This document shows, in pieces, positions 48,433 through 58,361 of a stretch of DNA of 64,000 nt. The position numbers and the translations under genes are program-made. The notes below the pieces were generated by a model. That model ran no database searches. It was not told the DNA's origin and saw only the letters and a list, made by a program, of their open reading frames with translations. Each line of letters opens with the position of its first letter. Within the stretch, counting starts at the first letter, position 1. This DNA is from Halorubrum sp. PV6 (lineage in GTDB: Archaea; Halobacteriota; Halobacteria; Halobacteriales; Haloferacaceae): positions 434,001 to 498,000 of the forward strand of contig NZ_CP030064.1 in assembly GCF_003990725.2 (NCBI RefSeq), read 5' to 3'.

Positions 48433-48505
48433 TAGTCCCGGGCGGATTCGAACCGCCGTCAATGGCTCCAAAGGCCATTATGATTGGCCACTACACCACG
48501 GGACT
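48433..48505 (-). tRNA. tRNA-Gln (anticodon TTG)
   Basis: On the minus strand the segment folds with acceptor AGTCCCG pairing with CGGGACT, discriminator A, D arm with GTGTAGTGG, anticodon arm ATGGC / CTTTGGA / GCCAT, and T arm GGCGG / TTCGAAT / CCGCC. The anticodon is TTG, hence glutamine. Length 73 nt, no intron. Downstream (lower coordinates) lies a duplicate of its 3' end at 48331-48354. Confidence 0.95.
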
Positions 48506-48648: not shown

Positions 48649-49971
48649 TCAGTCGCCTCCCGTGTCGTCGGTGTCGCGCTCGGCCGCCGACACGGGAGCC
48701 GCCGCCGGGCCGTTCGGCAGCCGATCTATCGGGACGGTTCCGGGGTCGAAACCGGCCCGCCGCCACGCCTCGTCGAGCGACACGTCGTCGTCTATCCGCG
48801 TCGGTCCATCCAGAGGATCTGGGCTTCCGGGTTCGCCGCCGCCCGCGCTTGCGACCCCGTCGCCACCGATCGCTTTCCCCGCCGCGTCGCCGCCGGCTGC
48901 CGGCGTCGGCGGAACGTAGGTGTAGACGAAATCGTCGGTCACGGCGTGGTACGCGCCGGTCATCGGGTCCTCGACGACGCCGGTGTCGTTGTCGATGGCG
49001 AAGTCGACGAGGTCCCTGAGCGTCGCCGCCTCGGCCTCGGGGCGGTCGTGAGCCGACTCGGGGAGGCGGATCTCGGTGACCCACTCTGCGAACTCCGAGC
49101 GGTCGTCCCGGTAGTCGAGGTACGCCCGCTCGGCCGGAGAGAGCGCGAGTCCGACCTCGCGGCGGGCGTACAACAGCCCGCCGGCCCCGGCGACGCCCGC
49201 GAGGAACAGCAGCGGCCCGCCGAGCGAACGGAGGGGCCCGTAGCGCCGCTCGACCGTGACCGGCTCCGTTCGCTCGACCGTGTCCGACTGGACGCCGGGC
49301 TCCGAGACGCTGTACGTCTCGCCGCCGTGCGTGAGCGTCATGTCGACCGTCCGCGTGTACGAGGTCTGCTCGCCGTTGATCGTGCCGTCGACGGTCACGG
49401 TCGTCGTGACGAACGTCTCGCGCTCGCCGGGGGAGGCCCCGAGATCCGACTCGATCTGATCCGCCGTCGCGCTGATCGCGGAGCTGTTGAGCGCGAACGA
49501 GGCGGCCGCCGTCTCGCCGGGTGCGACCCCGGAGACCGTCTCGGTCGTCAGCGGTTCACGCTCCTGCCAGTAGACCGTCTCGCCGTCGCCGTCGACGTTG
49601 CGCACGACGAGTACCGACTCGTAGGAGACCGCCACGTCGCTCGCGGCGTCGGCCGCGTAGCTCGTCTCCACGGCGACGTCGAGGACGGGCGCGACCCGCG
49701 TGAAGTACGTGTTCCGTCCGTCGAGCACCGTTCCGATGTCGAACACCGGGTTCGGCTCCGTCACCTCGGCCGAGTGGACGTACTCCGTCTCGACGGTCAT
49801 CGACGAAACCGTCCGCGTCTGCGTCTCGGTCCCAGGGTCCACGTGAACCGTGTAGACGAGCGCGCCCCCGGCCGCCGCGGCGAGCAGACAGACCGCGAGA
49901 AGCAGGGCGAACTGTGCGTTCAGTACCGCCCGAAGGCGGAGCCGAGTGTCGGACGACGCTGGCTGACTCAT
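48649..49971 (-). CDS. DUF5305 membrane protein of the surface-protein cluster
   Basis: A 440-aa membrane protein of the DUF5305 type. An N-terminal helix, NAQFALLLAVCLLAAAAGGALVY-like, is at about 16-40. A large extracellular beta-rich region follows (about 45-240), with EYVHSAEVTEPNPVFDIG and DGTINGEQTSYTRTVDMT. A second helix is at about 245-265 (GGPLLFLAGVAGAGGLLY), and a cytoplasmic acidic tail completes it. It starts 4 nt after the signal peptidase stop, so the two are co-expressed. DUF5305 proteins usually sit beside this kind of signal peptidase in haloarchaea. Role presumably in assembling the secreted proteins of the cluster. Confidence 0.8.
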   Translation of the reverse strand: MSQPASSDTRLRLRAVLNAQFALLLAVCLLAAAAGGALVYTVHVDPGTETQTRTVSSMTVETEYVHSAEVTEPNPVFDIGTVLDGRNTYFTRVAPVLDVAVETSYAADAASDVAVSYESVLVVRNVDGDGETVYWQEREPLTTETVSGVAPGETAAASFALNSSAISATADQIESDLGASPGERETFVTTTVTVDGTINGEQTSYTRTVDMTLTHGGETYSVSEPGVQSDTVERTEPVTVERRYGPLRSLGGPLLFLAGVAGAGGLLYARREVGLALSPAERAYLDYRDDRSEFAEWVTEIRLPESAHDRPEAEAATLRDLVDFAIDNDTGVVEDPMTGAYHAVTDDFVYTYVPPTPAAGGDAAGKAIGGDGVASAGGGEPGSPDPLDGPTRIDDDVSLDEAWRRAGFDPGTVPIDRLPNGPAAAPVSAAERDTDDTGGD

Positions 49972-49975
49972 GTGA

Positions 49976-51139
49976 TCACTTGTATATCTCGCGGAGGATG
50001 CGGCGGTGCAGCGGCGGTTTGGCGCGCGACTCTCGCGAGCGTATCCGGGCCGGCTCCCCGCGGAGGAGCACCACCCCGGTCCCGGCGATGGCACCGCCGA
50101 GGAGGCCGTTGATGGCGACCAGCGGGGCCCACGGGTGGAGCCCGTACAACTCGTCTATCACGCCGGGCGGCAGCACGGCGAGGTACCGGTGTTCGACGAC
50201 GAACAGCCGGTAGTACCCCGTCTCGTCGGGCGCGGCGAGCGTCACCGTCGTCGACGCCTCGCCCCGACTCCCGACCGCGAGTCGCTGGGGGGACACCTCG
50301 ACGCCCGGACTCGCCGGGGTGACGTAGGCGTACACCGGCACCAGTCCGGCGTTGGGGACGACGTACTCCAGCTGTTGGCTCGTCCCGCGCTCGATGACGG
50401 TGGGATTGTCGGACTCGAACTCGGCGCTCACGACGCCGTACTCCTGTGTGCCCGCCGGGACGACCATGGCCGCGGTCGCCGTCGCCATCAACACGAGCGC
50501 GAGGACGCCGACGATGGCGAGCACGGAGGTGCCGTCCTCGCGGGAGCGGTCGCGCTCGCGAGTCCCGCGCGAGTTTCGAGTCAGGAACCAGTCGACCGCG
50601 TACGCGACCGCGGAGAGGCCAAAGAGGATGTACGCGAGCCCCTGTGTCCCCTGCAGCGACCGGACGCCGAACGTGACCGCGAGCCACGTCTGGGCGGAAC
50701 CGATCCCGGACTGGACCGCCATGGCCACGGTCCCGAGGTAGGGGATCACCACCACGCTCCCGCCGACGGTGAGCGCCTTCGCGACGACGTCGGCCTCCTG
50801 GACGACCGGCTCGCCGCCGTCCTGGTCGGTAAAGGGGTTGTTGTCCCCTCGCGTGATGTACCCGCGCTCCGTCTCGTCGACGATTCGGTGGGTGGTCAGC
50901 CCGCCGCCCTGTATCTCCTGGGCGTCGAACGTCACCACGTCTCCGGCGTCTAACCCGCCCGTGAGAGCGGTCGGAATCGCGACGAACCCGTCGCCCGGAT
51001 CGAGCGTCGGCTGCATGCTCCCGGTTTCGACGAAGCTGAGAAGCACCGGCTGTCCGAGCAGCTGCCCGGCGATCAGCGCGACGACGACCACGACGGCCGC
51101 GACCTGCAGCGCGAGCGTGAGGGTGCGTTTCGGTGACAT
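49976..51139 (-). CDS. SipW/Sec11-type signal peptidase with C-terminal extension
   Basis: A 387-aa S26 serine peptidase. The helix LQVAAVVVVVALIAGQLLG precedes the nucleophile motif FVETGSMQPTLDPGD. Box with the ER-type general base His is GGLTTHRIVDE, and the box E-like TRGDNNPFTDQD follows. A Ser/His rather than Ser/Lys pair marks the ER/SipW type, which in bacteria processes TasA-like fibre proteins. Unlike the usual 180-220 aa, it continues with at least two more helices (about 165-230), a beta-sandwich-like domain (about 240-340) and a last helix. The likely substrates are the SipW-type proteins at 53975-54571 and 55720-56463. Confidence 0.88.
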   Translation of the reverse strand: MSPKRTLTLALQVAAVVVVVALIAGQLLGQPVLLSFVETGSMQPTLDPGDGFVAIPTALTGGLDAGDVVTFDAQEIQGGGLTTHRIVDETERGYITRGDNNPFTDQDGGEPVVQEADVVAKALTVGGSVVVIPYLGTVAMAVQSGIGSAQTWLAVTFGVRSLQGTQGLAYILFGLSAVAYAVDWFLTRNSRGTRERDRSREDGTSVLAIVGVLALVLMATATAAMVVPAGTQEYGVVSAEFESDNPTVIERGTSQQLEYVVPNAGLVPVYAYVTPASPGVEVSPQRLAVGSRGEASTTVTLAAPDETGYYRLFVVEHRYLAVLPPGVIDELYGLHPWAPLVAINGLLGGAIAGTGVVLLRGEPARIRSRESRAKPPLHRRILREIYK

Positions 51140-51296
51140 ACTCGTGGATGGGGCGACTCTCGGGGCGCGCGTGCCCGTCGCGCCCCGGCGTGTGACTTCG
51201 ATTATGAAACGCAAACGACACGTAATAAATGCGCGGGTCCGAGCAGATTGCGACGATACCGCGCGGCCGAGGCCCGACCGCTCCGTGACTCTCGGC

Positions 51297-52196
51297 TCAC
51301 CCCTCCTCGAAGGTCCCGGTCGCGAGGAGGGCGAACGGGCCGATGAAGGCGAGACAGAAGCCCAAAAAGTGGACGTAGAGGTTCACGACGCCGCCGGCGA
51401 CGGCCGGGTCCGTCGGGAATCCGACGACGGGGTAGCCGACGACCAATATCGCGCCCACGACGAACAGCTCCCCGTCGCCGGGGCGCGACGCGACCGCGCG
51501 GGCGATGTCGGCGGCGCTCGCTCGGATCGATATCCCGGCGCTCGACGCGTACAGCACCGCGAGGAGCGCGCCCGCGACCCCCGTCGCGATGCCGGCCACG
51601 CCGAGGTCGGCCGCGGAGAGCGGGAGGGCGAGCAGCGCGATCCAGCCGACCAGTCCGAAGAAGACCGCGGGTAGCGCGCGGATCGACGCGCCCGGAACGA
51701 TGCGCTCGCGGGCGTACGCGCCGAGCAGCAGGGGGAGCAGCCCCGAAAGCGCCATGTTGATCCCGGAGAAGCCGAATCCGATCGCGTTCCGCGGGACGGC
51801 GAGGTTCAGCGCCGAGAGGACGAACGGGAACGCCAACAGGAACGTCGCCAGCGCGATCATGAAGAACCGCCGATAGCCGGCCGCCACCGCGAGCGCGTAC
51901 CCGGCCCCGGCGAGGAGCACGTACCCCGCGACGTTCCCGGCGAGGTGGCCCGGAGCGAGGTGGACGTAGTGGGCGGTAAACGCCGTGAGAAGCGTCGGGT
52001 CGGTGTACGCGAACGCGAGCGACCGACGCGTGGACTCGGGGAGGGTGAAGACGGCGCCGAGCAGCGCGGGGACCGCCGCGAGCACGAGCACGTCGGCGAG
52101 TCGGATCCCCGCGGCCAGGTCGCGTCGGAGCCCGGAGCCGTCGGCGCTCCGGTTCGCACCGGTCTCGTCGCTCCGTTGGGTCGAGGAGGCCGTCAC
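51297..52196 (-). CDS. Rhomboid-like intramembrane protease
   Basis: A 299-aa membrane protein with about six to seven helices and rhomboid-like landmarks. YVHLAPGHLAGNVAGYVLL is the loop/helix 2 His-Asn region, GFGFSGINMALSGLLP carries the GxSG serine, and YVHFLGFCLAF carries the candidate catalytic His in the last helices. The disordered N-terminus (about 1-30) is Ser-rich. It starts at GTG 52196. Its place between the DUF1102 protein and the signal peptidase suggests a processing or quality-control role in the same secretion system. Active status is unproven. Confidence 0.72.
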   Translation of the reverse strand: MTASSTQRSDETGANRSADGSGLRRDLAAGIRLADVLVLAAVPALLGAVFTLPESTRRSLAFAYTDPTLLTAFTAHYVHLAPGHLAGNVAGYVLLAGAGYALAVAAGYRRFFMIALATFLLAFPFVLSALNLAVPRNAIGFGFSGINMALSGLLPLLLGAYARERIVPGASIRALPAVFFGLVGWIALLALPLSAADLGVAGIATGVAGALLAVLYASSAGISIRASAADIARAVASRPGDGELFVVGAILVVGYPVVGFPTDPAVAGGVVNLYVHFLGFCLAFIGPFALLATGTFEEG

Positions 52197-52245
52197 GCTC
52201 CGACCCTCGTCGACCAGCGAGTAAGACCTGTCGACGGAGCCGCGC

Positions 52246-53868
52246 TCACGACCGCCGCAGGCGTCGGACGAGCGCGACTCCGGCGAGCGAGAGCGTCACC
52301 CCCGCGAGCAACCCCCCGAGTTCGACGAGGTCGATTGCGCTCGGCTCCTCGGTCTGGGCGTCGCCCGGCCCCGCACCCGGTTCGTTGCCCGCCCCCGCGC
52401 TCGGCTCGTCACCGCCGTCGACGCTGCTCGCTCTCCCCCGCGTGTTCTCGTCAGCTGTCGCTCCCGTGTCGGTCCCCGCGTCCGTGCCGTCAGACTCGCT
52501 CCCCTCACCGGTCGGGTCGCCGACGAGCAGCGTCCCGGCGTCGGCCCCCGCCACCGCGAGGTCGTACTCGCCGGCGTCCGGGAAAGTCCCGGCGAGCGCC
52601 ACCGTCTTCGTCTCGTTCGGCGCGAGCGCGACCGTCCGGTTCGCGACCGGATCGCCGTTCGCCGTCAGCGTCACCCGCCGCTCGCCCGCCGCGCCCCCGC
52701 CGTTCCGCAGGGTCACCCGAACTGTCGCCTCCTCGCCGGGGTCGATCGCCTGCGGGTCGAGGTCCGTCGTCGCCACGTCGAACCGGGGCTCGTGCGCCGC
52801 GACCGCGAACGTCGAGGACGCGCTCGTCGTCGCGCGGAAGTGGACGCGGTCCTCGGGCAGATCCTGTATCCGGGCGACCTCCTCGTCCACGACCGAGACG
52901 GGCACCTCCACCCAGTCGCCGGCGGCGGTCCGGCGGTAGAGCGTCACGTCCGCGGGGTCCGTCCCGGTCGCGTCGAGGTGGCCGCGGTCCGCGCTGAACC
53001 GGACCGTCATCTCGTCGACCGCGTCCGGCGCGAAGTCGTGTTCGAGAGAGAGGTACCCGACCGGCCGGGGGTCGGTCGGCGCGGTCAGCCCGCTTGCGTC
53101 TCCGGTCGGGTCCGGGCTCCCGACCGCGGTCACGTCGACGTTGTCGGTTCGGACGCCCGCCAGATCGAACCCGTCGAAGGTGACGTTCCCGCCGGCGAGG
53201 TGCATCCCCCCGGCGTCGAACCGCACCGTGTCGCCGTACCCGACGCCCCACGCGTCGAACTCGCGGGCGGTCGCGTTCGGCGCCGTGACCGTGATCGTCG
53301 CCCCGTCGTCGCCCGTCGCCTGCGCGTTGCTGGTCGTCGCGGTCGGCACGTCATCGGCGCCTTCGGGGTCCGCGATCCGGGCCTCGATCGCGAACTCGTC
53401 GGCGCCCAACTGCGTCCCGGCCTCCGCGCCGCGCGTGTCGAATTCGAGCCCGACCGCGACCGTCTGGTTCGGCGCGAGCGTGACGTTGTTGGCCCTGCCC
53501 TCGACCGAGTCGCCGTCGGCGACGAAGGTGACCGACTCGTTCGGGTAGCCGATCCACACCTCCGCGTACCGGTCGCCCGTGTAGGTGATCTGGAAGATGC
53601 CGTCTATCCGCCCGGTCGATCCGACGTTGACGCCCTCGAACGAGGGGTCCTTGATGTTCGGGTTCGACGCCGAGATGTCGATCGCGATCTCGTCGTCGTC
53701 AGTTAAATAGGAGTAGTTCCCGTTCGGGCCGTCGGCCGGTTGGACCGCGAGGTCTTCATCGACGGCGTCGGCCGGGCCCTCGATGACCGCCGCGCCCGTG
53801 GTGAGGATCAGCGCACTCGCCGCTACGAGGAGGAGGGCGAGGGTTAGGGCGCGGCGATGTGGAAACAT
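52246..53868 (-). CDS. Large surface protein with DUF1102-like N-terminus and CARDB-like C-terminus
   Basis: A 540-aa secreted membrane-anchored protein. A basic signal-like start (MFPHRRALTLALLLVAASAL) is followed by TGAAVIEGPADAVDEDLAV. A beta-rich, acidic middle is typical of DUF1102 relatives. The C-terminal third has CARDB-like repeats (LDPQAIDPGEEATVRVTLRN), a Thr/Asp/Gly/Glu-rich linker and a final helix before RRLRRS, that is, a C-terminal anchor. The sequence is rich in NVT/NQT/NGS sites suitable for N-glycosylation. It lies between the small SipW-type protein and the rhomboid-like gene, all on the minus strand. Confidence 0.78.
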   Translation of the reverse strand: MFPHRRALTLALLLVAASALILTTGAAVIEGPADAVDEDLAVQPADGPNGNYSYLTDDDEIAIDISASNPNIKDPSFEGVNVGSTGRIDGIFQITYTGDRYAEVWIGYPNESVTFVADGDSVEGRANNVTLAPNQTVAVGLEFDTRGAEAGTQLGADEFAIEARIADPEGADDVPTATTSNAQATGDDGATITVTAPNATAREFDAWGVGYGDTVRFDAGGMHLAGGNVTFDGFDLAGVRTDNVDVTAVGSPDPTGDASGLTAPTDPRPVGYLSLEHDFAPDAVDEMTVRFSADRGHLDATGTDPADVTLYRRTAAGDWVEVPVSVVDEEVARIQDLPEDRVHFRATTSASSTFAVAAHEPRFDVATTDLDPQAIDPGEEATVRVTLRNGGGAAGERRVTLTANGDPVANRTVALAPNETKTVALAGTFPDAGEYDLAVAGADAGTLLVGDPTGEGSESDGTDAGTDTGATADENTRGRASSVDGGDEPSAGAGNEPGAGPGDAQTEEPSAIDLVELGGLLAGVTLSLAGVALVRRLRRS

Positions 53869-53879
53869 ATATATGTTAG

Positions 53880-53974
53880 TTGTATTGTGCTCGGTATATA
53901 CTAAATTTCGGAACAATCAAAAATAATATAATTTATATTAAATTTGAATAGATTAGATTAGATTGATTACGAGG
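53880..53974. other. AT-rich intergenic tract with ATTAG repeats
   Basis: About 95 nt between the two secreted-protein genes, mostly A/T, with a tandem ATTAG run (about 53949-53963) and a TTTATATTAA stretch (53931-53940). It may contain the promoter for the downstream gene (TATATATG at about 53868-53875 lies next to its ATG) and a terminator for the upstream one. No ORF. Confidence 0.5.
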
Positions 53975-54571
53975 TTAGAGGTTTGTGACTGTTGCGTAGA
54001 ATGATATCTGGTCTGGGATCTGACCCACTCCATCATCAGAGGTGTCCCCTTTAGCGAGAACCGCAGGGTGGACCGAGATCGCCTCGCCAGGCGAAAGACG
54101 GGGGATATTCTCAGTAGGACTCGGGGTTCCAATTGAATCAAATTCACCATCATTATGCATTAGACCGTCCTCCGATCCGAACTCGGAACCGCCCTCTGAA
54201 AGCGCATTCTCTGACCAATAGAGGGCAAGAGCATCTTGGTTCCAGCCATTAATGTTTCCATCTGCATCAAGTTCATGGGCTTCAACAGAGATGTCGTTGG
54301 TTCCATTATTTCGGATCCAGAAAACGTTATAGAACCGAGTATTAGCATTCTCGTTTAGTTGGTCAATATCTAGTTCAAATTGATTTCCGTCGTACGTTGC
54401 GTAATCTGTTTTTTTAACCTCAAATCCGAGATAGGCATTAGCATCACCCGTAACACTGACAGTGACATCGCGATTAGCCCATGCTTGACTGAAGGCACCC
54501 GTACCCATCGCAGCTGCACTACCTGAAGCCAATGCGCCTAGTCCGGCGAGGAACTTACGTCGGTTTGCCAT
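53975..54571 (-). CDS. SipW-type secreted protein (DUF1102/TasA-like)
   Basis: A 198-aa protein with an N-terminus of the SipW-dependent type: NRRKFLAGLGALASGSAAAM followed by GTGAFSQAWANRDVTVSV and DANAYLGFEV. The mature part (about 30-198) is beta-rich with Asn/Asp and ends in a strand TISFYATVTNL-like QISFYATVTNL. Members of this group form TasA-like matrix fibres or pili when cleaved by a SipW-type peptidase. G+C is about 50 percent, clearly lower than the roughly 66 percent of its neighbours, a sign of transfer or relaxed selection. First gene of the minus-strand cluster. Confidence 0.83.
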   Translation of the reverse strand: MANRRKFLAGLGALASGSAAAMGTGAFSQAWANRDVTVSVTGDANAYLGFEVKKTDYATYDGNQFELDIDQLNENANTRFYNVFWIRNNGTNDISVEAHELDADGNINGWNQDALALYWSENALSEGGSEFGSEDGLMHNDGEFDSIGTPSPTENIPRLSPGEAISVHPAVLAKGDTSDDGVGQIPDQISFYATVTNL

Positions 54572-55039
54572 AGTTGTGTAACCTCGTTGTTGTCCGCACA
54601 CGACCCGCGGGCCGCCGACGCGAGACATCCCGCGTCATCCGGGGTCGCTCTACGATATCCATGGGGCCTATCCCATATCGTTATGAATTTGCAGAAACAC
54701 TTCCGGGCGGGGCTGAAAACCCGGTCGACCGATTCTGACCCCGCCTGAATCCCGACCTGATCGCTTCAGGCTTGGCCTGAGACTCGCTCGCGACGCGTTC
54801 AGGGCCGCCCTGAAGCGGCAATCGTTGCTGCTGAGATGCCTCCCTGTTTGATGCGAGCTGATAACATCGACGAGCAGGTCGTACTCTCTCCTCCCCCTCG
54901 AACCCCGATTTATGCGCTTTTAGCCGCTGCTGTGCCGTTTTGGGAACTCAAAAGCCTGTGTATTTGAACGGCGAGAAAGTTTAGATAGTTATCATAACCG
55001 CGGGGTTTATGTTGGCGTGTTCATATGTGTCTGACAGTA
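54572..55039. promoter_or_regulatory. Divergent control region with clustered CCTGAA palindromes
   Basis: The 468-nt divergent gap between the SipW-type gene and the membrane HTH gene. Between 54744 and 54814 are six CCTGA(A)/TTCAGG half-sites. They include the dyads CCTGA-N4-TTCAGG (54756-54770) and TTCAGGG-CCG-CCCTGAA (54798-54814). At about 55004-55012 a TATA-like GGTTTATG lies roughly 30 nt before the start at 55040. The motif array is a candidate operator set for the HTH protein or another regulator. No ORF with plausible composition is seen inside. Confidence 0.6.
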
Positions 55040-55621
55040 ATGGCGTCGGTCCAGCAGGTCGAGGGGGGAGGGGCGGAACCGACACGGGAGGTGTCCGAAG
55101 ACGAGCTGTTCGACGTGCTGGCGAATCAGCGTCGGCGGTTCGCGTTACACCTCCTGAAAAAGGAGGGCGACGAGACGATCGCGATCGGCGACATGGCCGA
55201 ACAGATCGCGGCTTGGGAGAACGGGATCGACACGACGGAGATCACGGGCAGCGAACGCAAGCGCGTGTACACCGCGCTCCAGCAGTCACACCTACCGATG
55301 ATGGACGACGCGGGCGTCGTCCGGTTCAACAAGGACCGCGGCGTCGTGGAGCCGACGCCCGCGCTGCAGGACATCGATTTATATATGGACGTAGTCGAGG
55401 GGAGAGAGATTCCTTGGAGCACCTACTACGTCGGGCTCTCGGCCGTCGCCGCCGCGCTCGCCGGCGCGGTGTGGCTCGACGCGTGGCCGTTCACGCTACT
55501 CCCGGAGTTCGCGTGGACGGTCGCCATCGTCGTGGCGTTCCTGTTCTCCGCGCTGGCGCACAAGTACTACACCGCGGAAATGAAGGTCGGCGAACCGGAA
55601 GAGCCGCCGGAATTGACGTAA
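55040..55621 (+). CDS. Membrane-anchored HTH regulator
   Basis: A 193-aa protein. The N-terminal domain (about 20-110) is a winged-helix-like HTH: DELFDVLANQRRRFALHLLK, EQIAAWENGIDTTEITGSER, and KRVYTALQQSHLPMMDDAGV. This is the form of haloarchaeal DUF7344-type regulators. Two hydrophobic helices follow (YYVGLSAVAAALAGAVWLDA and FAWTVAIVVAFLFSALA). A membrane-bound transcription factor that senses the envelope would suit the surface-fibre cluster that it faces. The start at 55040 (MASVQQVEGG) is preceded by a TATA-like element about 30 nt upstream. Confidence 0.78.
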   Translation: MASVQQVEGGGAEPTREVSEDELFDVLANQRRRFALHLLKKEGDETIAIGDMAEQIAAWENGIDTTEITGSERKRVYTALQQSHLPMMDDAGVVRFNKDRGVVEPTPALQDIDLYMDVVEGREIPWSTYYVGLSAVAAALAGAVWLDAWPFTLLPEFAWTVAIVVAFLFSALAHKYYTAEMKVGEPEEPPELT

Positions 55622-55719
55622 GTGCAGGGTTTCAAGCGGTGCCTACGCGGGTTCCGGCGCCGCATAACCTTAGGGTCGGAACGCGTCGTGGCGACTGATC
55701 GACGAGATCGTATTTGAAT

Positions 55720-56463
55720 ATGAAACGACGACACGCGATCCTGCTGCTCGGCGGCGCGAGTTCCGGTGCGATGAGCGTCGACACCGGCGCGTTCAGCAGC
55801 GTCGAGGCCGAGCGCGGGGTGGAGGTGAGCGTGGAAGACGACGAGGACGCGTATCTGGGGCTGAAACAGGTGAACCGTTATCTTCCGACCAGCTCTACCA
55901 CGCAAACGACCGATTCGGTAGACTACGGTCCAACCGATACCGTCCAAGTGAAAAACCAGTTCTCCGACCCGCTCGATCTGACAGTGGACGTGGAGTCTAC
56001 TGGTGGCGTCGTCGATGACGAAGACATCAGCGTCGACGACGTACCCAAAGGCGGCAACAAACTGGGGGTCGGTGATGAGGCGTTCGTCGCCGTCACGTGT
56101 GATACGAACGGAGATGGACGACTGACGCTGTCGCTTGAGGGTACTGCCGGCGGTGCAGTTGTTGAGGCGACCCGGCAGTTCAGGGTGTCATGTCTCGACG
56201 TCAGGTTCAATGGAGATAACGGAAATGCCGTGGTCAAAGGCGAGTTTACTAACCTACCTGTGACGGTCGTATTCAAGAACGACACAGAGGTAGACCGCAC
56301 CATCTCATCGAAATCGAACAATGGGAGTGGGACCACGGAATCGAATGGAGGGGCCGCAGATCCGGACGAGAGAGCCGTTCTTCACCCACGAAGTGGCGGA
56401 GAAGGAGGGAACGACGCGATCGAACGAGTCGTGATCGGTGGGACTGTTTTCGAGCGGTCATAG
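55720..56463 (+). CDS. Second SipW-type secreted protein
   Basis: A 247-aa protein with N-terminus MKRRHAILLLGGASSGAMSV, then DTGAFSSVEAERGVEVSVED and DEDAYLGLK. The shared pattern TGAFS..A.R.V.VSV..D..AYLG links it to the 53975-54571 protein. The following region is beta-rich with many Asp and Asn, and the C-terminus lacks a clear anchor. It follows the membrane HTH gene by 98 nt on the same strand. G+C is lower than average here too. Probably another substrate of the signal peptidase; a role in cell-surface fibres is inferred. Confidence 0.78.
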   Translation: MKRRHAILLLGGASSGAMSVDTGAFSSVEAERGVEVSVEDDEDAYLGLKQVNRYLPTSSTTQTTDSVDYGPTDTVQVKNQFSDPLDLTVDVESTGGVVDDEDISVDDVPKGGNKLGVGDEAFVAVTCDTNGDGRLTLSLEGTAGGAVVEATRQFRVSCLDVRFNGDNGNAVVKGEFTNLPVTVVFKNDTEVDRTISSKSNNGSGTTESNGGAADPDERAVLHPRSGGEGGNDAIERVVIGGTVFERS

Positions 56464-56552: not shown

Positions 56553-56843
56553 ATGCCTACCATCTCCACTCGAGTCCCGGACGACCTCGAAGCCGAACTC
56601 GAGGCGTACCTCGACGAGGAGCGCCTCGACCGGAGCACGGCGGTCCGAAAGCTCCTCTCCGAAGGGCTCGAAGCGTGGCGGACGGAGCGCGCGCTCGAAC
56701 GCTTCGCCGACGGTGACGTTTCACTTATAAAAGGTGCCGAACTCGCGGACCTGTCGGTCTGGGAGTTCGCCGACCTCGTCGAGGAGGCCGACGACGCGTG
56801 GATCTCGGCCGACCATCTCGAAGCCGACCTCGACGAGCTGTGA
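56553..56843 (+). CDS. UPF0175/RHH antitoxin
   Basis: A 96-aa antitoxin-like protein. The N-terminal ribbon-helix-helix is MPTISTRVPDDLEAELEAYL with helix LDRSTAVRKLLSEGLEAWRT. The C-terminal UPF0175-like helix pair is VSLIKGAELADLSVWEFADL. It overlaps the downstream PIN-domain gene by four bases (GTGA), a typical toxin-antitoxin layout. The promoter probably lies at about 56510-56550 (TACACATAGCATACAC). It should neutralise the toxin and repress its own operon. Confidence 0.85.
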   Translation: MPTISTRVPDDLEAELEAYLDEERLDRSTAVRKLLSEGLEAWRTERALERFADGDVSLIKGAELADLSVWEFADLVEEADDAWISADHLEADLDEL

Positions 56844-57358
56844 GCTGGGTCTTCGACGCGACGCCGCTGATCTACCTCGCGAAGGTGGAGCGGCTCGATG
56901 TGGTCGAGCCGTTGGACGAGCCGCGGGTCGTCCCGGAGGCCGTCTACCGAGAAGTCGTGACGGCCGGCGTTGAACAGGGGTACGACGACGCGCGCCGGAT
57001 CGAGCGCGCCGTGGAGGACGGCCTGATCGATGTCGTCGCGGTCGACACCGACGACTCGCCGGTCGCGACGCGACTCGCGCGGCATCCGGGACTGAGCGAC
57101 GCCGACGCCGCGGTCTTGGCCTGCGCGGACGCCCGCGATGCGATCGCTGTGATGGACGAGTCCGCTGGACGCTCCGCCGCCGAGGTGGAAGATGTCGAGA
57201 CGCGCGGGACCGCATACCTCATTCTCGCCGCCGTGAGAGACGGCGCGCTGTCGACGGCGGAGGGCCGTGACGCCATCGACGCGATGATCGATCGCGGCTG
57301 GTACGTCGCGCCGGACGTGTACACGAAAATCGTCGAGAAGTTGGAGTCGTTCGAGTAA
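56840..57358 (+). CDS. PIN-domain (DUF3368-like) toxin
   Basis: A 172-aa PIN-like nuclease toxin. It starts at GTG 56840 inside the antitoxin stop. Acidic metal-binding residues appear in order in FDATPLIYLAKVERLDVVEP, VVPEAVYREVV, LSDADAAVLACADARDA and VMDESAGRSAAEVE, the typical four-Asp/Glu pattern. The C-terminus has GTAYLILAAVRDGALSTAEG, the DUF3368 hallmark. Probable target: RNA, as in VapC-like toxins. Paired with the UPF0175 antitoxin. Confidence 0.83.
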   Translation: MSWVFDATPLIYLAKVERLDVVEPLDEPRVVPEAVYREVVTAGVEQGYDDARRIERAVEDGLIDVVAVDTDDSPVATRLARHPGLSDADAAVLACADARDAIAVMDESAGRSAAEVEDVETRGTAYLILAAVRDGALSTAEGRDAIDAMIDRGWYVAPDVYTKIVEKLESFE

Positions 57359-57390
57359 CGACTATCACAGTTCGTGAGAGAGACACCGAT

Positions 57391-57504
57391 ATGGCATCGT
57401 CGCTCCCGCTATCGGAGGAGGAAAAAGAACGAATGCGGCGCGGGCGAGTCAGTTCCGGGGTCGCGACCGAGGAAGCAGACATCGACCAGATACTCTACGG
57501 CTGA
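57391..57504 (+). CDS. 37-aa small ORF downstream of the TA pair
   Basis: ATG 57391 to TGA 57504. The peptide is strongly charged: MASSLPLSEEEKERMRRGRV then SSGVATEEADIDQILYG. It starts 33 nt after the PIN toxin stop on the same strand and has the look of a small antitoxin fragment, but no family is recognised. It could also be a chance ORF. Confidence 0.35.
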   Translation: MASSLPLSEEEKERMRRGRVSSGVATEEADIDQILYG

Positions 57505-57528
57505 GTTCGGGCGTCGATCTACTCCTCG

Positions 57529-57791
57529 TTGGTAGTTTCCTCATTGGTCTCACCTTCCGCCCGCAACGTCTCGTCCGCGAACTCCTGAACTCGCGTACTT
57601 CCCTCACGCTCACGTCGACCGCCCGTGCGCTGTCGACTTGGCCGTTCACGACCGCGTTCTACTGTGGTCCCCAGGCCTCGGACGGCTGTTCTCTGATCGA
57701 CTCACCGGGTCACCCGCTCGTAGCGGGGCGGTCGCTCGGGGTTGTCGTCGGCTCCGGTCGAGTCCTCCGCAGGCGTCCGTGAGTCGTTCAT
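57529..57791 (-). pseudogene. Decayed copy of the nucleotidyltransferase-partner gene
   Basis: On the minus strand it begins MNDSRTPAEDSTGADDN and PRYERVTR, then meets a stop. Farther on it reads NAVVNGQVDSARAVDVSVRE and, in a shifted frame, an acidic C-terminus ETNEETTNEE. This parallels the intact gene at 58807-59070 (MNDSSPSNSDPTAADD, PRYEQVVR, NAVVNGQVDSARAVGVSAAE). At least one in-frame stop, another TAG near GPQ, and a frameshift make it a pseudogene. Its nucleotidyltransferase partner is missing; the RelE/RHH pair follows immediately. Confidence 0.8.
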
Positions 57792-57796
57792 CAGGT

Positions 57797-58084
57797 TCAG
57801 TCGTCACCCGGATGGTACGCGCCCGAGCGATGCTCGATGTCGTAGATCACCATGACCCCTCGATTGCGATCCGCAGCGGCACCCAACCGATAGTCACCGA
57901 TGCGGATCTTACCGTGCGGGACGCCTGAGAGCGGTTCGATATATTCGGGTGGATCCCGCCACTCGTCGGTCACGATGTCGTCGAGCTTCGAGACGAGACG
58001 CTGTTGTATCTGCGTGTCGAGCCCCTCGAACGCCCGCGCAGCGGGCGGCCGGAACTCCCACGTCCAGTCGTCACGCCTCGTCAT
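57797..58084 (-). CDS. RelE/ParE family toxin
   Basis: A 95-aa toxin of the RelE/ParE fold: WEFRPPAARAFEGLDTQIQQ, LVSKLDDIVTDEWRDPPEYI, PHGKIRIGDYRLGAAADRN, and VMVIYDIEHRSGAYHPGD. The IRIGDYRL strand with the basic residues and final His are characteristic of ribosome-dependent mRNA interferases. Its start overlaps the upstream antitoxin gene by 14 nt. With the antitoxin it forms a type II system. Confidence 0.87.
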   Translation of the reverse strand: MTRRDDWTWEFRPPAARAFEGLDTQIQQRLVSKLDDIVTDEWRDPPEYIEPLSGVPHGKIRIGDYRLGAAADRNRGVMVIYDIEHRSGAYHPGDD

Positions 58085-58361
58085 CGATCATCTCGAGGAC
58101 CTCGGCGCGAGAGATGGCCTCGCTCTCGCTCTTCCGCATCGAGTACTCCTCGGCCGCGATGCTCGCCAGCATACTGCGAGATGCGCCGGGGTGGTCCGTC
58201 GCGTCTCGGATCGCATGCCGAAGGAACTCGCTCCGCGACGTGTATCCCTCCTCCTTCCAGACTGCGTCGATTTCCGCCAGCTGGCGCTCGGTAACGCGGA
58301 CGTTGATCGTCGTTGTTTCAGGGTCGTCGACGCCAGCGTCGTTTGTACCCGTCTCAGCCAT
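58071..58361 (-). CDS. RHH antitoxin of the RelE pair
   Basis: A 96-aa ribbon-helix-helix protein: TTINVRVTERQLAEIDAVWK, then the helix-turn-helix-like TSRSEFLRHAIRDATDH, then an acidic C-terminal tail (ISRAEVLEMIDDEA) that would bind the toxin. It overlaps the RelE-like gene by 14 nt and is expressed first, as expected of an antitoxin. An AT-rich stretch at about 58380-58395 (GGTTATATAAATTC) is its likely promoter. Confidence 0.85.
   Translation of the reverse strand: MAETGTNDAGVDDPETTTINVRVTERQLAEIDAVWKEEGYTSRSEFLRHAIRDATDHPGASRSMLASIAAEEYSMRKSESEAISRAEVLEMIDDEA

Follow-up and report, generated by a model that had tools for sequence, protein, structure and literature searches.

A probable Tat-fimbria-type surface-fibre locus in Halorubrum sp. 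PV6, with proposed assembly, anchoring and control

Gene content and relation to known Tat-fimbriae

The 64,000-nucleotide stretch of Halorubrum sp. PV6 DNA analysed here (the window; contig NZ_CP030064.1, positions 434,001 to 498,000), part of a 3.04-Mb haloarchaeal genome, carries seven genes (Table 1) that, to judge from their sequences, very probably build a thin surface fibre of the Tat-fimbria (tafi) type. On the minus strand the putative fibre subunit is followed by an anchor protein, a rhomboid-family protease, a signal peptidase and a DUF5305 membrane protein; divergently, on the plus strand, lie the genes of a DUF7344 helix-turn-helix (HTH) regulator and of a second small secreted protein. 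All seven were found at positions 48649-56463, where the original prediction had placed a haloarchaeal surface-fibre locus, and domain matches and conserved order back its gene list; after correction of the starts, the small secreted proteins begin at about 54571 and 55720. The same cassette order recurs in about 30 Halorubrum and Halobellus genomes and in many other haloarchaeal genera (gene calls in related genomes being mechanical), so that the cassette is not a product of chance; relatives with 70-85% peptidase identity are mostly Halorubrum.

Tat-fimbriae of haloarchaea are an already known kind (Galeva et al., iScience 2025, as cited in PMC12687288), of which the window locus is a further member with added features. 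The fibre assignment is carried by the Tafi pilus of Natrinema sp. J7-2 (PDB 9P0A), which matches the window subunit alone at E=4.6e-10 and a profile of 63 subunit homologues at E=4.8e-20 over nearly the whole mature chain; the two pilins are homologous and share a twin-arginine translocation (Tat) signal and an AF[ST]S start. Comparison of gene order in other haloarchaea, which had been proposed as a check, supports this assignment: where a genome encodes a pilin that equals 9P0A in all 175 residues compared, the order is pilin, TafF/BIG-like anchor, signal peptidase and DUF5305, with DUF7344 HTH and TafC-like genes divergent, as in the window. The window adds an adjacent rhomboid gene and a CARDB-bearing anchor with a Gly-motif tail; the J7-2-type locus lacks both of these, rhomboid and Gly motif, so that tafi in general can do without a rhomboid. 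That locus has in turn a gene without counterpart in the window, encoding a 902-residue protein with a hydrophobic N-terminal segment and lying between the pilin and HTH genes (L164:10678-13386).

Table 1. Features of the proposed Tat-fimbria locus (positions in the window)
Feature	Position	Strand	Evidence
DUF5305 membrane protein	48649..49971	-	PF17231 184 bits; last cassette gene in nearly all orthologous loci
ER/archaeal-type signal peptidase, 387 amino acids	49976..51139	-	TIGR02228 57.2 bits; S41/H84/D99 invariant
Rhomboid-family intramembrane serine protease	51297..52196	-	HxxxN, GxSG, HxxG invariant (25 homologues)
TafF-like anchor	52246..53868	-	DUF1102 25.2 bits, CARDB 36 bits; TafF 21.2 bits (below cut-off)
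Putative fibre subunit, TafA/TafE-like	53975..54571	-	TafE 69.7, TafA 40 bits; 9P0A match; fold match 7UEG
Four inverted repeats TTCAGG-N5-CCTGAA, candidate operators	54701..54814	no strand	63 sites in 27 upstream regions
Conserved HTH-gene promoter region, GAACGGCGAGAAAGTTTAG ... TATCATAACCRCGGGRTTTATGTTGG	54965..55039	+	alignment of 27 upstream regions
DUF7344 winged-helix regulator, two C-terminal transmembrane segments	55025..55621	+	PF24035 103 bits; alternative start 55040
TafC-like secreted protein	55720..56463	+	TafE 39.8, TafC 36.7 bits; beta-sandwich model, PapD/FimC-like matches

The secreted proteins and the case for a fibre

Both small secreted proteins, taken in the original prediction to be of SipW type, do exist, and their signals are twin-arginine, not Sec-type as in TasA. 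The subunit begins with MANRRKFLAGLG...MGTG ahead of the mature start AFS, and the second protein with MKRRHAILLLGG...TGAFS; their twin-arginine motifs read NRRKFLAG and MKRRHAIL and the signals end in TGAF[ST]. An RR pair lies upstream of the TGAF motif in 115 of the 121 family members that carry this motif; export of both proteins would be by Tat. In the mature subunit, residues A1, F2 and R9 do not vary among the 63 homologues.

A comparable arrangement is the TapA-SipW-TasA system of Bacillus subtilis, in which a dedicated ER-type signal peptidase also stands beside the fibre subunit and the mature TasA starts with A-F (PMC10269814); residues 28-38 of TasA, at its mature N-terminus, form the donor strand in a donor-strand assembly (PMC9674648). 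That system differs in its Sec-type signals, whereas the window has Tat signals and an additional rhomboid, DUF5305 protein, anchor and HTH regulator. An AlphaFold model of the mature subunit is a beta-sandwich with a disordered N-terminus, and its first Foldseek match over the PDB is the AbpA bundling pilus of Pyrobaculum calidifontis (7UEG; E=5.9e-4, probability 1.00), a donor-strand fibre with which it shares 12% identity. FimF, FimA, the Sulfolobus thread, 9P0A and TLP filaments are among the matches that follow; TM-scores are low, and the fold matches are therefore support rather than proof. TasA itself is absent among the 50 Foldseek matches listed, which are headed by the TasA-like AbpA and include TLP-1a/b at low TM-scores. 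As to the predicted likeness to TasA and AbpA, the subunit has AbpA as its best match with a poor superposition, and the likeness failed for the second small protein, whose model consists of beta domains with a beta-sandwich and matches PapD/FimC-like proteins; this PapD/Ig-like fold class, as modelled, is a common one and no chaperone role is claimed from it.

Several points weigh against a fibre locus with the assembly, anchoring and control proposed below. The subunit model is of only moderate quality (predicted local distance difference test score 75) and superposes poorly on 7UEG (TM-score 0.38, root-mean-square deviation 9.4 A), the similarity among subunits lies mostly in their N-terminal half, and the matches of the second small protein are PapD/Ig-like rather than TasA-like. 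Neither small protein matches Pfam, and the NCBIfam Taf fimbrial models that match both do so below their equivalog cut-offs (TafE 69.7 against 155 for the subunit, TafE 39.8 against 155 and TafC 36.7 against 410 for the second protein), as does TafF for the anchor (21.2 against 420). The J7-2-type locus does without a rhomboid, and the link between rhomboid and anchor is one of co-occurrence in related genomes together with a tail motif recognized post hoc. Finally, the fibre is in this organism a prediction from genes. As to the NCBIfam cut-offs, the TafA, TafC, TafE and TafF equivalogs are narrow subfamilies that do not define the kind of fibre, and the solved J7-2 pilin, scored over its first 175 residues, likewise falls short (57.5 against 190, 74.1 against 155); the cut-offs are thus not decisive and were dropped as a test of membership.

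It is quite improbable that these proteins, as Tat-exported and peptidase-processed surface proteins, form no fibres and instead stay monomeric or act as a coat on the S-layer or on vesicles. The predicted status of the fibre in this organism, the low TM-score of the subunit to known fibre subunits and the membrane tail on the anchor would suit such proteins, but the subunit is homologous to a solved pilus subunit whose locus is laid out alike, and its donor-strand-like AF[ST]S N-terminus is conserved.

Signal peptidase, DUF5305 protein and regulator

The signal peptidase passes the TIGR02228 cut-off (51.85 bits), and its invariant Ser41, His84 and Asp99 are as in ER/archaeal-type enzymes, in agreement with the type originally predicted; the SipW equivalog model gives 40 bits against a cut-off of 190. 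Additional transmembrane segments and an extracytoplasmic C-terminal domain set it apart from the general Sec11-like enzyme, which is encoded elsewhere in the genome (C1:140327). Relatives of the peptidase in a plasmid collection are distant only (<60% identity). A viral origin was rejected, as no relative of the peptidase was found in viral contigs.

The DUF5305 protein (Pfam cut-off 29 bits), with its likely start at 49971, consists of an N-terminal transmembrane segment, an extracytoplasmic domain, a second transmembrane segment and a cytoplasmic tail, and its gene also forms part of the locus that encodes the solved Tafi pilin. The regulator, as had been expected, combines an HTH domain with two apparent transmembrane segments. 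No mention of DUF5305, DUF7344 or DUF1102 was found in the literature searched.

Rhomboid protease and anchor

The predicted DUF1102-like anchored protein is borne out: it has a DUF1102 domain, fibre-subunit-like and above its cut-off (22.2 bits), a CARDB domain, and a C-terminal Gly motif, transmembrane helix and basic tail (TEEPSAIDLVELGG-TM-RRLRRS, TM being the helix). No match at E<=1 was obtained to the PGF-CTERM tail model of archaeosortase A substrates, and comparison of the anchor and of the rhomboid profile with solved structures gave nothing useful. The neighbouring protease, also correctly foreseen as rhomboid-like, keeps its catalytic Ser-His dyad in addition to the motifs of Table 1. 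It has no Pfam Rhomboid match, as is the case at E<=1 for all but 8 of its 25 relatives; the paralogue at the canonical Taf locus of the same genome (contig C2) passes the Pfam model with 30.5 bits.

Where 4.5 kb or more of upstream sequence was available, a rhomboid and a transmembrane-tailed anchor occur together in 40 loci, an anchor alone in nine, neither in 21, and a rhomboid without a recognized anchor in one, which contains masked sequence (Fisher 5e-10, without correction for relatedness). A Gly-containing motif precedes the anchor transmembrane helix in 42 of 45 rhomboid loci as compared with 3 of 10 others, the Gly-motif tail having been defined after the data were inspected. That a rhomboid with intact catalytic motifs accompanies a transmembrane-tailed anchor in 40 of 41 loci suggests that the rhomboid may cut the anchor, a tentative proposal to which we give somewhat less than an even chance.

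The arrangement recalls the rhombosortase/GlyGly-CTERM pairs, in which the enzyme tends to be encoded next to its only target (PMC3237569); here too a rhomboid gene lies beside that of a single protein with a Gly-rich motif, a transmembrane helix and a basic tail. The window rhomboid differs in lacking the specific His and in scoring far below the TIGR03902 cut-off (11-12 bits against 84). Rhombosortase was rejected as a family label: all 25 locus-type rhomboids match TIGR03902, yet so do generic rhomboids in 14 of 14 control genomes; three other rhomboids of the same genome outscore both tafi-associated ones; and the diagnostic His four residues after the catalytic Ser is replaced by Met (S-G-I-N-M). 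As this hallmark residue is absent, the rhomboid-anchor pair is proposed only to work like a rhombosortase and its target. With a probability just under even, the rhomboid is instead a general or quality-control protease, for example one that cuts the regulator or the peptidase, and not a processor of the anchor tail. The generic nature of the rhombosortase-model matches, the missing His and the existence of anchors without a local rhomboid all speak for such a protease, but its gene comes immediately after that of the anchor and hardly ever occurs where the anchor is missing, and the Gly-motif tail is distributed as described above.

Constant machinery and variable subunits

When about 30 orthologous loci are compared with the window, median identity is highest for the peptidase (82%) and the HTH regulator (80%), followed by the rhomboid (71%), the DUF5305 protein (68%) and the anchor (58%); the two secreted proteins reach only 38% and 34%. 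The subunit gene has a G+C content of 48%, its operon partners 70-72% and the second secreted protein gene 59%. Across genome pairs, identity follows peptidase identity for the DUF5305 protein (Spearman 0.86), the anchor (0.74) and the HTH regulator (0.68) and does not do so for the subunits (0.19 and 0.07), these correlations being descriptive because the pairs are not independent. H. saccharovorum and H. aquaticum, with peptidases 79% identical, have subunits that are 91% identical; these lie in a shared 710-bp block of 88% DNA identity, against 64-79% in the rest of the cassette. A second pair shows a breakpoint about 100 bp inside the subunit gene, where the signal-peptide region has just ended. 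Subunit number and place also vary: class I loci have one to three subunits between HTH and anchor genes (the window has one), and class II loci have none there, their subunits lying behind a longer TafC-like gene.

The subunit genes thus appear to be hypervariable and patchily exchanged between species, while the machinery is stable. Fast vertical divergence of loosely constrained proteins, with no exchange between species, would also leave most subunit pairs only about 32% identical, as is seen, but it is unlikely given that subunit identity does not track that of the flanks, that the shared 710-bp block and the breakpoint after the signal-peptide region exist, and that subunit G+C departs so far from the roughly 71% of its neighbours.

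A phased array of candidate operators in the divergent promoter

The inverted repeats between the subunit and HTH genes start at 54701, 54733, 54765 and 54798 (spacings of 32, 32 and 33 bp), which corresponds to about -340, -308, -276 and -243 from the HTH start; counting the window, about eight loci have these four positions at nearly identical spacing, and several class II loci have the -276/-243 pair. The 27 orthologous upstream regions contain 63 sites, where mononucleotide shuffles predict 0.5, and 37 spacings of 31-34 bp, where the shuffles have none. The position of the array is conserved across Halorubrum though the surrounding sequence has diverged, and as 32 bp is about three helical turns the repeats face the same side of the DNA. 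Control of expression by the DUF7344 protein through these candidate operators may be rated an even chance. Binding by a global regulator rather than by the neighbouring DUF7344 protein is less than evenly probable; it is favoured by a perfect repeat that precedes the gene of a large secreted protein at another place in the genome, but within one mismatch the repeat occurs at only four genomic places, two of them at this locus, and the array keeps a fixed position relative to the HTH start. That other perfect copy, the only one, lies at C1:244784 (L183:3785-3801), about 80 bp upstream of the gene of a 1071-residue secreted beta-helix-type protein, which the same regulator might also target.

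Proposed assembly, anchoring and control

The explanation that is likely as a whole is a tafi locus working as follows. Subunits would be exported folded by Tat and cut by the dedicated peptidase before AF[ST]S, whereupon the freed N-terminal strand would complete the beta-sandwich of the next subunit in donor-strand assembly, as in AbpA and TasA fibres. The subunit chain would be rooted on the anchor protein, and the rhomboid, by cutting the Gly-motif/transmembrane tail of the anchor, might re-anchor the fibre or shed it. Expression would be under the control of the DUF7344 protein, acting through the phased array, and subunit genes would be exchanged between species while the machinery stays.

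A distinct fimbria class that unites a fixed assembly cassette, horizontally swapped subunits, a phased four-operator array and a dedicated rhomboid cutting the anchor tail to re-anchor or shed the fibre is a more doubtful proposition. If true, the rhomboid cut would be a rhomboid-based counterpart in archaea of sortase attachment. The rhomboid-anchor pair and the phased candidate operators bear on the anchoring, release and switching of donor-strand fibres in archaea. With its constant machinery and swapped subunits the cassette behaves like a classic variable surface antigen, and the choice of subunit is thereby a candidate factor in deciding biofilm partners and the attachment of viruses.

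Related loci and neighbouring genes

Such cassettes are, in the comparison made here, widespread in haloarchaea and occur several times in one genome. Contig C2 of the same genome bears a canonical Taf locus (TafA, TafC, TafE, TafF), whose TafA (200 bits) and TafE (166 bits) both exceed the NCBIfam cut-offs. It encodes the same protein types as the window locus, including a rhomboid and a signal peptidase of its own, and differs in gene order, in having no DUF5305 gene at the locus and in a TafC with a bactofilin-like domain (L034:6930-13429), a polymer-forming domain not usually expected in a secreted fimbrial protein. At C1:1.12 Mb lies a close paralogue in layout, with DUF5305 and peptidase genes and no recognized rhomboid. 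A paralogous locus (L035:3961-14612) encodes a subunit-like protein of about 900 residues and a second DUF1102-type protein together with the same HTH regulator, peptidase and DUF5305 protein. A further locus, at C1:2.12 Mb, consists of two genes, and C1:54-56 kb has a minimal one with peptidase, DUF5305 and small-protein genes; a minimal locus (L037:6177-9906) comprises a small secreted protein, a signal peptidase, a second secreted protein and DUF5305.

In the window a tRNA-Gln gene (48433-48505) adjoins the DUF5305 end of the locus and is found near the same end in three relatives (L072, L074, L083). Beside the variable end lie two apparent toxin-antitoxin pairs (56553-58361), one of a ribbon-helix-helix protein with a PIN/DUF3368 protein and one of a RelE-like protein with a ribbon-helix-helix protein, and genes similar to these pairs also flank the H. 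persicum locus (L074).

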